DNA from: Synergistaceae bacterium
Lineage (GTDB): Bacteria; Synergistota; Synergistia; Synergistales; Aminobacteriaceae
NCBI GenBank assembly: GCA_031272145.1
Contig: JAISUL010000013.1
Coordinates: 1-41,180, forward strand
Length of the DNA: 41,180 nt
Direction: 5' to 3'
The notes beneath the pieces are model-generated. The model searched no databases. It saw nothing but the letters and a program-made list of their open reading frames with translations, and had not been told where the DNA came from. This document shows, one piece after another, positions 20,028 through 23,187 of the stretch. A program made the translations under genes and the position numbers. Positions within the stretch are counted from its first letter, which is position 1, and each line of letters begins with the position of its first letter.

Positions 20028-20898
20028 ATACATTCTCCGCGACACCGGCCGGCTGCTCATGCGGCACTGGGTGCTCGGCGCCTTGACGCTCGTGACCGCC
20101 GCCGTGATGATGTGGATACTCGGCCTGACCACGCTGTTCTCGCTGAACATCCAGAACATGCTCCGAAGGCTGGAGAACGAGCTGATGGTTCAGGTCTACG
20201 TGAAGGCGGACGGCAACGCGGAGCAGGTCGCGGCGGCGGTAAGGAAGATTCCCTCCGTGGCCTCGATGCAGCTCATATCGCCGGAGGACGCCCTGTCGAA
20301 GCTCCAGCTGCGCATGGGCAGCCAGGCCCGCGTGCTCGACATCGTGGGCGAGAACCCGCTCCCATGGAGCGTGGAGGTGCGAGTGAAAAACGCCGCGTCG
20401 GTGCCGGGCCTCGTGCGCGACCTCATGGCCATGAGCGAGGTGGACGACGTGGTGTACTCCGGCCTGGCGGTCGAGCGCGTCTCCACTCTGTCGCGCGTCG
20501 CGTTCAAGACGGCCTTCGCGATGTTCATATTATCTATAATGATCACCTCCCTCGTGCTGTACAACACGATCCACATCTCGCTCTACTCGCGGCGCGAGGA
20601 GATCGGGATAATGTTCCTGATAGGGGCGACGCGGGGCTACATATCGACGCCGTTCGTCCTGGAGGGGACGGCGCTCGCCTTCCTGGGCTCGGTCATAGCC
20701 ACAGTCGGGATAATGTCGGCGTACTTCCCCGGCATCCGCCTTTTGCAGAACAGCCTGCCCTTCCTTAACTTCGTCGGGGACGCGGTCGTGCTGAGGCAGT
20801 TCAGCCTGCTGCTCGTTGGCTTCGGCGCGACGCTTGGCTGGATATGCAGCTACATAGCAGTCGTGCGCTTCATGCGGGCCGCGATGAAGCCGCTATGA
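20014..20898 (+). CDS. ftsX: Cell-division membrane protein FtsX
   Basis: 294 residues. There is one membrane segment near the N-terminus (about 18-45, HWVLGALTLVTAAVMMWILG). A periplasmic loop follows (about 46-165, with VQVYVKADG and SPEDALSKLQLRMG). Three C-terminal segments come last (FAMFILSIMITSLVLY, AFLGSVIATVGIMSAYF, FSLLLVGFGATLGWI). This is the standard FtsX layout, and SRREEIGIMFLIGATRGYI is the family coupling motif facing FtsE. It transmits ATPase motion to the hydrolase activator encoded next. The stop overlaps the next start as ATGA. Confidence 0.95.
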   Translation: MTAFRYILRDTGRLLMRHWVLGALTLVTAAVMMWILGLTTLFSLNIQNMLRRLENELMVQVYVKADGNAEQVAAAVRKIPSVASMQLISPEDALSKLQLRMGSQARVLDIVGENPLPWSVEVRVKNAASVPGLVRDLMAMSEVDDVVYSGLAVERVSTLSRVAFKTAFAMFILSIMITSLVLYNTIHISLYSRREEIGIMFLIGATRGYISTPFVLEGTALAFLGSVIATVGIMSAYFPGIRLLQNSLPFLNFVGDAVVLRQFSLLLVGFGATLGWICSYIAVVRFMRAAMKPL

Positions 20899-22115
20899 GA
20901 TCAGCCCTTGCGGGGGCACTGTTCGCGCTGGCGGCGTTTTTGCTCTGCCTGTTTTGCCTACCCTGCCTACCCTGTCGACCTTGCTCGGCCGCTATGGCCT
21001 ACGAGCCAGACTACGACTTCCAGATCGCCGAGGAGGAGCGCCATCGGATGGAGCTCGACCTCAAGCTGAACGAGTACCGCAAGAACATTCAGCGCATGAA
21101 GCTCAAGGAGAACGACGTGCTCAGCCGCCTTGACCGCTACCGCCAGGACGCGGAGAAGACGCGGCGGGACATCGCGGTTTTGGAGCTTCAGGCCGCGAAG
21201 CTCAAGAGCTCCATCGCCAAGCTGAACGAGGAGATGAAGACCTCCGAGCGCATGCTGGCGGAGCTCAAACTCAGCTTGGCCAGGCGCATGGTCGACATTT
21301 ACAAGTACGGACTGCCCTCGGAGCTCTCGATAATTCTGTCCGCCGAAAGCATGCACGACGCCGTCAACTCCGTGTACCTTCTGAGCAGGCTCTCGGAGCA
21401 CGACAAGGAACTGGTTGCGCAGCTCAGGAACAGGCAGATGGAGATAGCCCTCTCCAAAAAGACGCTGGAAGACCACAGCGAGAGGCTGGACCAGCAGTCT
21501 AAGGCCCTCATGCGCGAGCGGGACAAGTACAACGCCACCATCAAGGAGACGAACAAGTTTTTGGATGACCTGAGGCGCGAGAAAGCCAAGGCCGAGCAGG
21601 TGGCCAAGGAGATGGAGGCGGCTCAGAAGGCCGTCGGCGAGACCATCGTGACGTTGAAGCGCCGCAGGACGGAGGATGGCACGAAGGGCAGCGACTACCT
21701 GGCGGATAGGATCGCCAGGGGGCGCGGGTCGATGTTCGACTGGCCGATCCGAGGCCAGATCAGCAGCCCGTTCGGCACGAGGGTGCACCCCGTGTTCCGC
21801 ACGAAGTCCTTCCACTCCGGAATCGACATATCGGCGACGAAGGGAACGCCCGTGAAGGCGGCTGCGACTGGCGAGGTGCTGTTCGTCGGGTGGATGCGAG
21901 GCTACGGCCAGGTGGTCATACTCGACCACAGGCGCGACTACTCCACGGTCTACGCCCACATGTCGTCGACGACCGTGAAGGAGGGCACGGTGGTAAAGGC
22001 CGGAGCCACGATCGGCGCGGTAGGCAACACCGGAACAACCACCGGCTACCACCTGCACTTCGAGGTCAGAGTAGGCAGCGAGGCAAAGAACCCGTTGGAT
22101 TACCTGAAGAAATAG
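20895..22115 (+). CDS. Periplasmic M23 (LytM) peptidase with coiled coil, EnvC-like
   Basis: 406 residues, ATG 20895 overlapping the ftsX stop. It has a signal peptide rich in Cys and Leu (about 1-33), a long coiled coil (about 45-260, as in EnvC), and a C-terminal LytM domain. The zinc and catalytic residues are all present: H307 and D311 (FHSGID), H355 (VYAHM), H386-L-H388 (YHLHFEV). E. coli EnvC has lost these and only activates amidases, so this protein may itself cut peptidoglycan cross-links under FtsEX control. The operon position makes the FtsEX partnership very likely. Confidence 0.9.
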   Translation: MRSALAGALFALAAFLLCLFCLPCLPCRPCSAAMAYEPDYDFQIAEEERHRMELDLKLNEYRKNIQRMKLKENDVLSRLDRYRQDAEKTRRDIAVLELQAAKLKSSIAKLNEEMKTSERMLAELKLSLARRMVDIYKYGLPSELSIILSAESMHDAVNSVYLLSRLSEHDKELVAQLRNRQMEIALSKKTLEDHSERLDQQSKALMRERDKYNATIKETNKFLDDLRREKAKAEQVAKEMEAAQKAVGETIVTLKRRRTEDGTKGSDYLADRIARGRGSMFDWPIRGQISSPFGTRVHPVFRTKSFHSGIDISATKGTPVKAAATGEVLFVGWMRGYGQVVILDHRRDYSTVYAHMSSTTVKEGTVVKAGATIGAVGNTGTTTGYHLHFEVRVGSEAKNPLDYLKK

Positions 22116-22116
22116 C

Positions 22117-22145
22117 TTGACAAGCGTGTTGGGATGAGGCATAAT
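22117..22145 (+). promoter_or_regulatory. Strong sigma-70 promoter reading rightward, antisense to a small peptide gene
   Basis: TTGACA (22117-22122), 17-base spacer, CATAAT (22140-22145), two bases after the M23 stop codon. No plus-strand gene follows; the transcript would cross the minus-strand peptide gene at 22178-22273. Confidence 0.65.
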
Positions 22146-22177
22146 CATTTTTAGGGACTTACGTCCTTTCGGAAGTT

Positions 22178-22273
22178 TTAGAACGCTTTGAAGAGCCGAA
22201 TCAGTTCGGCGCAGATTAGCGCTAGCTTAGCAAAGGCTAGCGCTAATTTCGCAAGTTTCACGATTCTCTCCAT
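22178..22273 (-). CDS. Putative 31-residue cationic amphipathic peptide
   Basis: A short frame from ATG 22273 to TAA at 22178. The peptide begins MERIVKLAKLALAF and ends ELIRLFKAF. Six Lys/Arg against two Glu are spaced every three to four residues among Leu, Ala, Ile and Phe, giving an amphipathic helix. A G-rich ribosome site (GGGGGTGG, ending 5 bases before the ATG) lies upstream, and the same G-run can pair in a hairpin that would hide it. A minus-strand promoter and an opposing promoter flank it. The arrangement resembles type I toxin-antitoxin loci, but no known toxin family is recognised. A perfect 12-bp inverted repeat (22215-22226 with 22236-22247) lies inside the frame. It is unannotated by length criteria; coding status is inference. 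Confidence 0.5.
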   Translation of the reverse strand: MERIVKLAKLALAFAKLALICAELIRLFKAF

Positions 22274-22280
22274 GCTTCCA

Positions 22281-22294
22281 CCCCCTTTCGGGGG
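22281..22294 (-). promoter_or_regulatory. Hairpin hiding the peptide gene's ribosome site
   Basis: On the minus strand CCCCC-GAAA-GGGGG places the G-run of the ribosome site in a five-pair G/C stem with a stable GAAA loop, 7 bases before the ATG. Confidence 0.5.
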
Positions 22295-22334
22295 GCCATG
22301 TGCCCCGGACAGTCTCACCCTGACGAAGTACAAG

Positions 22335-22353
22335 CTCAGGGGCCTCTCCTGAG
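22335..22353. other. Hairpin in the peptide gene leader
   Basis: CTCAGG (22335-22340) pairs with CCTGAG (22348-22353). No T-run follows on either strand, so it is more likely a leader structure than a terminator. Confidence 0.35.
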
Positions 22354-22357
22354 GTGA

Positions 22358-22386
22358 ATTATATCACGGCATGGAGTGGTTCAGAA
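22358..22386 (-). promoter_or_regulatory. Candidate promoter for the small peptide gene
   Basis: Minus strand: TTCTGA (22386-22381), 17-base spacer, TATAAT (22363-22358). It overlaps the stop codon of the prepilin peptidase gene and would give a leader of about 75 bases. Confidence 0.5.
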
Positions 22387-23187
22387 CGGCCAGTCCGTTC
22401 TGAAGGGCTTGCCTATGTACATGTTTCCCATGAAGGCCAAAATTCTGGGGCCCCACAGCAGGGTCAGGAGGCCGCCTAGGGCTAGGTAGGGCACTAGGGG
22501 GATTGCGTCGTGGCGGCCCCACTTCACCTTGCCGCGCAGCATCAGCCACACGGCGGCGACCGCTCCGCACATCAGGCCAAGGTAGAAGGATATGAGGGCC
22601 ATCTTCCAGCCCAGCAGCGCCCCTACTCCGGCCATCAAGAACGCGTCCCCCCAGCCCATGCCGCCGCGGCTGGCCAGGATGATCACGGCCACTACGCCCC
22701 AGCCAGCCGCTGCTCCGATGAGCCCGTCGAGCAGAGCCCACCACCCGCCGAACGCCCGGGCGATCAGTCCGGCGGCGGCCATCACCGCGGCGAACGAGTC
22801 GAACACGTACCCGGTCTCGAAGTCGGTCAGGGAGTTCAGGAAAAGCCCGAAGGCCGCGATCATCGAGAGAAGGTACGCCCAGCCTATCCCCCAGCGCCAC
22901 GCCAGAACCCCGGCCATGACCGCGCCGGTAAGCTCGACCGCGAGATAGCGCAGGGAAAAGGCAGCCCCGCACCCCCGGCACTTACCCCTCAGGACGACCC
23001 ACGAAACGACTGGAACCAGCTCGAACAATGTGAGGACGCGCCCGCAGTTTTCGCAGACCGACCTCTCTGCTCCCCACCATGGGCGGCCTATGACGCTCCG
23101 ATGGGCTACGACGTTCAGGAAAGAGCCGAGGCACGCGCCCAGCATGGCCGAGAAGGCGACGTGAAGGGCGCGGGACGCTGCGTCCAT
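22381..23187 (-). CDS. pilD: Type IV prepilin peptidase (A24 family)
   Basis: 268 residues, polytopic inner-membrane aspartic protease that cuts and usually N-methylates type IV pilin-like precursors. The N-terminal zinc-type loop has CENCGR and CRGCG, the two CxxC pairs of the methylase-linked domain. The aspartates sit in NSLTDFETGYVFD and GMGWGDAFLMAG. The usual GxGDxK lysine is replaced by Phe. About eight hydrophobic segments follow. Its ATG overlaps the stop of the YvyF-like gene by one base. A likely substrate is the pilin-like protein at 32124-32621. Confidence 0.92.
   Translation of the reverse strand: MDAASRALHVAFSAMLGACLGSFLNVVAHRSVIGRPWWGAERSVCENCGRVLTLFELVPVVSWVVLRGKCRGCGAAFSLRYLAVELTGAVMAGVLAWRWGIGWAYLLSMIAAFGLFLNSLTDFETGYVFDSFAAVMAAAGLIARAFGGWWALLDGLIGAAAGWGVVAVIILASRGGMGWGDAFLMAGVGALLGWKMALISFYLGLMCGAVAAVWLMLRGKVKWGRHDAIPLVPYLALGGLLTLLWGPRILAFMGNMYIGKPFRTDWPF

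Follow-up and report, generated by a model that had tools for sequence, protein, structure and literature searches.

A probable family of type I toxin-antitoxin-like loci, chromosomal and multicopy, in Synergistales

The locus and its features

The unit described here is flanked by an M23 peptidase gene (20844-22115, plus strand) and a prepilin peptidase gene (22381-23187, minus strand), which are 265 bp apart. Both genes lie in the window, that is, the whole 41,180-nucleotide stretch of contig JAISUL010000013.1, from a Synergistaceae bacterium, that was analysed. An initial annotation of this DNA had proposed a minus-strand frame for a small peptide, with a structured leader and a facing antisense promoter. 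The 31-codon frame is present at 22273-22178 with a strong Shine-Dalgarno sequence (SD). The sense promoter TTCTGA-17-TATAAT was located as claimed and additionally has an extended -10, and both the C5-GAAA-G5 hairpin that hides the SD (22294-22281) and the plus-strand TTGACA-17-CATAAT (22117-22145), the best match in the window, were confirmed. The individual features are as follows, with the basis for each in brackets.

22273-22178, minus strand: peptide ORF, 31 aa, MERIVKLAKLALAFAKLALICAELIRLFKAF, with a strong SD (family alignment and dN/dS)
22358-22366, minus strand: sense promoter, extended -10 TGATATAAT (family logo TnTGnTATAAT without a -35)
22363-22358, minus strand: sense -10 TATAAT, 17 nt after TTCTGA and also part of the extended -10 TGnTATAAT
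near 22351, minus strand: predicted mRNA start (placed from the sense promoter)
22343-22349, minus strand: GGAGAGG near the mRNA 5' end; its counterpart in relatives pairs with the 3' terminator-hairpin loop (family covariation)
22318-22341, minus strand: 5' leader hairpin CCCTGA...TCAGGG, helix 2 of the family structure (sequence and fold)
22292-22306, minus strand: alternative hairpin GGGGC-ACATG-GCCCC, which competes for the C-run and would free the SD (fold)
22281-22294, minus strand: SD-sequestering hairpin CCCCC-GAAA-GGGGG (100% of cells paired in relatives)
22215-22247, minus strand: covarying hairpin within the ORF; read on the plus strand, the predicted intrinsic terminator of the antisense RNA
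22195-22210, minus strand: second ORF hairpin GCCGAACTGATTCGGC, partly conserved (helix 6, 71.7% of cells paired)
22155-22166, minus strand: remnant of the conserved 3' domain, GGACGTAAGTCC, family consensus GGGCGTAAGTCC...GGCAGCCC; partner strand absent in the window copy (alignment)
22132-22140, minus strand: possible re-formed 3' partner GCCTCATCC of 5' GGAGAGGC, with one bulge (MFE fold)
22115-22125, minus strand: remnant of the sense terminator hairpin, GCTTGTCAAGC, loop lost (sequence compared with relatives)
22117-22145, plus strand: antisense promoter TTGACA-17-CATAAT (matches 11 of 12)
near 22152, plus strand: predicted antisense RNA start (placed from the TTGACA-17-CATAAT site)

Within the 41-kb window, the minus strand has no other TGnTATAAT than that of the sense promoter, and neither strand has a promoter match of at least 11 of 12 besides TTGACA-17-CATAAT. 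The 5' half and the ORF of the window copy are intact and the 3' half is degenerate. Its GGGC...GCCC domain is without the partner strand, the terminator loop bearing CCTCTCC is gone, the antisense T-tail is weak, and the family's extended -10 antisense promoter is missing, with the TTGACA/CATAAT site in its place. The bulged duplex that may form between the 5' end and 22140-22132 has a predicted energy of -12.9 kcal/mol, but it is neither unique nor the best-scoring site in the region. The argument made below at the level of the family is independent of the window copy, which is a 3'-degenerate member.

Distribution of the family and its reading frame

Of 83 genomes from the host's family, 46 gave matches to a covariance model of the unit (R1; 120 positions, built from 20 copies), and these cover 14 of 20 genera. 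The matches listed number more than 150, with up to 14 in a single genome, many of them in tandem arrays with a spacing of about 300-360 nt. Further copies occur in the host genome itself, two of them as a tandem pair on contig 37, and recurrence there and in dozens of relatives places the arrangement noticed in the window above chance. Named carriers include several Synergistaceae MAGs and the oral bacterium Fretibacterium fastidiosum, whose complete genome (NC_021038) has two good copies, at about 1,873,581-1,873,700 on the minus strand and 1,182,363-1,182,482 on the plus strand. In a phylum-wide sample, R1 gave weak matches in only one family beyond that of the host. No DNA match to the element was found in phage and plasmid collections. 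The neighbouring genes that were scanned are mostly ordinary, unrelated chromosomal genes and differ between copies; PADLOC returned nothing on eight neighbours.

The tandem arrays L085, L086, L087 and L099 contain 2-6 units, each unit with its own divergent promoters, and a PTS EIIC gene adjoins the L086 array as well as the L102 and L116 copies. A MAG labelled Bacillota has a near-consensus copy (L047:54-173) on one contig of 3.8 kb, which probably reflects misbinning and not transfer. Decayed copies (L083, L110, L040 and L029:2585-2676), with loss of the start hairpin, a frameshift or a deletion, show turnover of the family. Other candidates were discarded: pattern matches in two viral contigs (L051, L052) correspond to an unrelated 69-aa ORF behind a similar SD, a match on contig 107 of the host genome falls inside an M23-like gene and is not the element, and the common plan was absent on inspection from the weak matches L126, L127 and L129.

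An intact ORF of 24-37 codons with a strong SD was observed in 74 of 91 model matches, a set that includes a few antisense echoes or chance matches. The family peptides are 27-37 residues long with the consensus MERIxKLVxALAxLxRAIAELIRLFKA, and their larger internal insertions are whole 7-residue (heptad) blocks, as expected of a helix. The dN/dS ratio was 0.28-0.41 over identity bands from 50 to 100%, values that may understate the protein-level constraint because RNA structure also constrains synonymous sites. Judged by these substitution ratios, the reading frame is under protein-level purifying selection. The initial annotation had named relatives keeping the RNA hairpins only, and not the frame, as one finding that would count against its proposal, but the frame is kept.

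The peptide of the window had been described as cationic and amphipathic. The first term stood, with a charge of +4; the second is less well borne out, as the helical hydrophobic moment of the full-length peptide does not exceed that of shuffles (z = -1.1; 0.41 in the best 18-residue stretch). Across the family, the helical hydrophobic moment has a mean z of 2.1, with 47 of 72 peptides above 2, and mean hydrophobicity is modest. Because of this modest hydrophobicity, and because the full-length moment in the window is not above shuffles, action on the membrane is a guess. Searches of Pfam, NCBIfam and PHROGs with the peptides returned sub-threshold matches only, and Rfam gave no match at or near the gathering score.

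Short amphipathic sequences with the family's mean z of 2.1 would also suit phenol-soluble-modulin-like or signalling peptides. The product could then be a non-toxic small protein under the same RNA control, such as a benign membrane or stress regulator, a secreted signal or an antimicrobial peptide. We consider this unlikely. No leader peptide, processing gene or export gene was found among the scanned neighbours. Type I toxins, moreover, are usually marked by just such features: multicopy units, decayed and tandem ones among them, silencing in several layers, and an antisense RNA dedicated to the gene.

Structure of the mRNA and the opposing antisense RNA gene

A hand-specified structure was tested on 23 full-length copies. 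The proportion of cells paired was 89.1%, compared with at most 48.4% when the partners were slid, 27 pairs had double-sided changes, and none of 500 shuffles was as good. Most striking among the pairings, the terminator hairpin at the 3' end carries in its loop a segment (CCTCTCC) complementary to the mRNA 5' end (GGAGAGG in most copies), and the two segments change together, as in GGACAGG/CCTGTCC, GGCGAGG/CCTCGCC, CGGTGG/CCACCG, GGGGAT/ATCCCC and others. For 33 distinct loops the mean matched run was 6.06, versus 4.13 in permuted pairs, and this value was reached in 0 of 20,000 permutations. The C-run of the SD hairpin also pairs with an upstream G-run in 22 of the 23 aligned copies, and the leader therefore looks bistable. 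Structure and covariation together point to an mRNA whose folding sequesters the SD and locks the transcript, with silencing as the predicted consequence. In columns 238-287 of alignment A4, strong conservation also marks the asymmetric internal loop (GUAAGU / CA) of the 3' domain GGGCGUAAGUCC...GGCAGCCC.

Dispersed and tandem copies are also what a small mobile (MITE-like) repeat would leave, and the -10 boxes together with GGAGAGG/CCTCTCC do form an inverted pair at the ends. Under this explanation, or that of a structured non-coding RNA, the unit would have outwardly complementary ends and the ORF would be incidental. The purifying selection on the frame and the insertion of whole 7-residue blocks argue against it, as does the lack of a transposase among the scanned neighbours. 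Since the ends vary yet match each other within a copy, and one of the two matching segments forms the loop of a hairpin, RNA pairing is indicated rather than terminal repeats. The mobile-element reading was set aside on the finding that the ends differ between copies with self-complementarity kept, and we regard this whole class of explanation as very improbable. A leader peptide or cis-regulatory uORF controlling the next gene is less credible still. It would share the short ORF and an SD under hairpin control, but the unit has its own terminator, and the neighbours vary and may be convergent, as is the M23 peptidase gene on the opposite strand in the window.

Signals for an RNA on the other strand are likewise conserved. 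ATTATA (TATAAT on the other strand) is located just past the terminator in 60 of 69 copies, compared with 6 of 62 control regions. When the antisense strand was aligned on this motif, a TnTGnTATAAT extended -10 logo was obtained as in the sense promoter, again without a -35. A T-rich tail, with T at 5 or more of 8 positions, adjoins the best-covarying hairpin of the ORF on its antisense side in 39 of 72 copies and on its sense side in 1 of 72. Isoleucine is encoded by ATA at 118 of 149 positions before this hairpin versus 19 of 119 after it, a comparison that serves as an internal control for codon usage; the Fisher P of about 3e-26 is nominal because related copies were counted as independent. 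An independent terminator scan found the ORF-hairpin site in two copies. The hairpin with its antisense-side tail is best read as the terminator of the antisense RNA, and the simplest reading of the sequence is that the antisense RNA would terminate within the very peptide gene that it opposes. In the 36 copies for which all signals were located automatically, its median predicted length is 172 nt. The conserved promoter and terminator signals thus indicate an overlapping antisense RNA gene throughout the family, in agreement with the antisense RNA that had been proposed to run across the gene in the window.

Proposed mechanism and relation to known type I systems

Based upon the self-folding mRNA, the helical peptide and the opposing small-RNA signals, the locus is probably one of the many chromosomal copies that make up a type I toxin-antitoxin-like family of Synergistales. 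The type I-like reading first put forward for the window is in this way supported and is strongly suggested by the anatomy, from which we infer transcription, processing, membrane action, toxicity and neutralisation. A short mRNA of ~245-285 nt would be transcribed from the extended -10 promoter and would be translationally silent at birth, with its SD held in the C5-GAAA-G5 hairpin, rivalled by the upstream GGGG/CCCC hairpin, and with its 5' end paired to the loop of its own terminator hairpin. The probable target of the 27-37 aa helical peptide is the membrane of the cell that makes it. A convergent antisense RNA of ~170 nt would start just past the terminator and end at the hairpin in the first half of the ORF, and it would span the 3' UTR and most of the ORF, not the SD. 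Given this coverage, the most likely route of silencing would be a kissing-loop contact at the loop of the terminator, formation of a duplex and its cleavage by RNase III, on the model of RatA/txpA. Peptide synthesis would become possible if the antisense RNA were lost or if trimming at the 3' end disrupted the 5'-3' pairing. Against this scheme, the C5-GAAA-G5 hairpin would persist after 3' trimming.

The family was compared with the known type I systems. AapA/IsoA of Helicobacter and related Epsilonproteobacteria is multicopy and chromosomal, and encodes a small peptide on an mRNA with its SD in short hairpins and a 5'-3' interaction in the full-length form, opposed by a cis antisense RNA (PMC6733600). 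The Synergistales family resembles it in its multicopy chromosomal small-peptide gene, its SD hairpin, its 5'-3' mRNA lock and its predicted cis antisense RNA, and a long-distance 5'-3' interaction of the AapA kind is supported at the level of the family. It differs in that the long-distance partner of the 5' end is the terminator loop, which makes a pseudoknot, in that the predicted antisense terminator is inside the ORF, and in its phylum; no relation to the AapA peptide was detected, as judged by Pfam, NCBIfam and PHROGs profiles rather than by an AapA sequence. Convergent promoters, an antisense start 3' of the toxin gene and contact at the terminator region are shared with Fst and RNA I-RNA II (par of pAD1). 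In par of pAD1, the two RNAs share a terminator and their overlap stays outside the coding region (PMC4147584), whereas in Synergistales the predicted overlap takes in most of the ORF, where a separate terminator is predicted for the antisense RNA. The peptides are unlike Fst and Ldr, with no match to those profiles in Pfam or NCBIfam.

In TxpA/RatA and BsrG/SR4 of Bacillus subtilis, the antisense RNA overlaps the 3' part of the mRNA, not the SD, and silencing is of the RNase III type (PMC4147584). With their 3'-overlapping antisense RNAs that spare the SD, these systems are the nearest mechanistic model, although no sequence relation of TxpA or BsrG to the Synergistales peptides was detected. 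Their toxins are longer and transmembrane, and terminator-loop long-distance pairing of the Synergistales kind is not known from them. The toxins of TisB/IstR-1 and DinQ/AgrB are similar in length and helical character, but the Synergistales peptides scored 12.7-13.8 bits with the TisB and DinQ profiles against cut-offs of 25-38 (E 0.04-0.18) and are not members. For TisB, the antitoxin targets a standby site within the 5' leader (PMC4147584).

Two further groups of peptides were observed. Four loci of the host genome (L136, G000:C17; L137, G000:C49; L138, G000:C16; L139, G000:C33, minus strand) form a further subfamily of less charged, nearly uncharged peptides (e.g. MMKEVTRFIFACAELIWAVADFIRTLKS) that share the leader of the main family, with a 5' GAGGGGCAGG-type segment and a matching 3' end. 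A second class, from another Synergistales family (L123, L124, L140-L142, L146, L147, L150 and L155), has peptides of 36-40 aa (e.g. MGEKVKSQLIIWLTLSVLLGALARLLEALADILRLLM) and the plan of the main family, with an SD hairpin, a 5' CGGAGAG or CGGAAGGG matched in a 3' hairpin, and ATTATA downstream. In this class the hairpin at the start of the ORF is preceded by A-rich codons (MAKNEKG, MKKEKS), which are T-tracts on the antisense strand; the putative antisense terminator was read by eye and not counted. With rather less assurance than for the family itself, we favour a large, new Synergistota type I superfamily in which the coding sequence of the toxin would also serve as intrinsic terminator for the antitoxin RNA opposing it. 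The U-tract would dictate codons (in the second class, apparently a Lys/Asn/Glu-rich N-terminus), and a pseudoknot joining the 5' end to the terminator loop would lock the mRNA.

The family is apparently undescribed. Before the cyanobacterial case reported in a 2025 paper, type I systems were described in Proteobacteria, Firmicutes and Tenericutes only (PMC12390103). No type I system in Synergistota was found in the open-access literature, where small-protein surveys may list such peptides without function; a structured-RNA paper that mentions Synergistetes refers only to an earlier choice of genomes. If the present interpretation is true, type I systems would extend to Synergistota, where dozens of genomes and over 150 loci are available from the outset, and the two copies in the complete Fretibacterium fastidiosum genome make the family directly testable. 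A sequence that encodes a peptide on one strand and an antisense terminator on the opposite one, with selection measurable on each, would be a clean natural case of dual demand. The terminator loops, which diverge between loci and stay matched within them, would provide a natural set for studying how near-identical RNA-controlled loci coexist without cross-talk.
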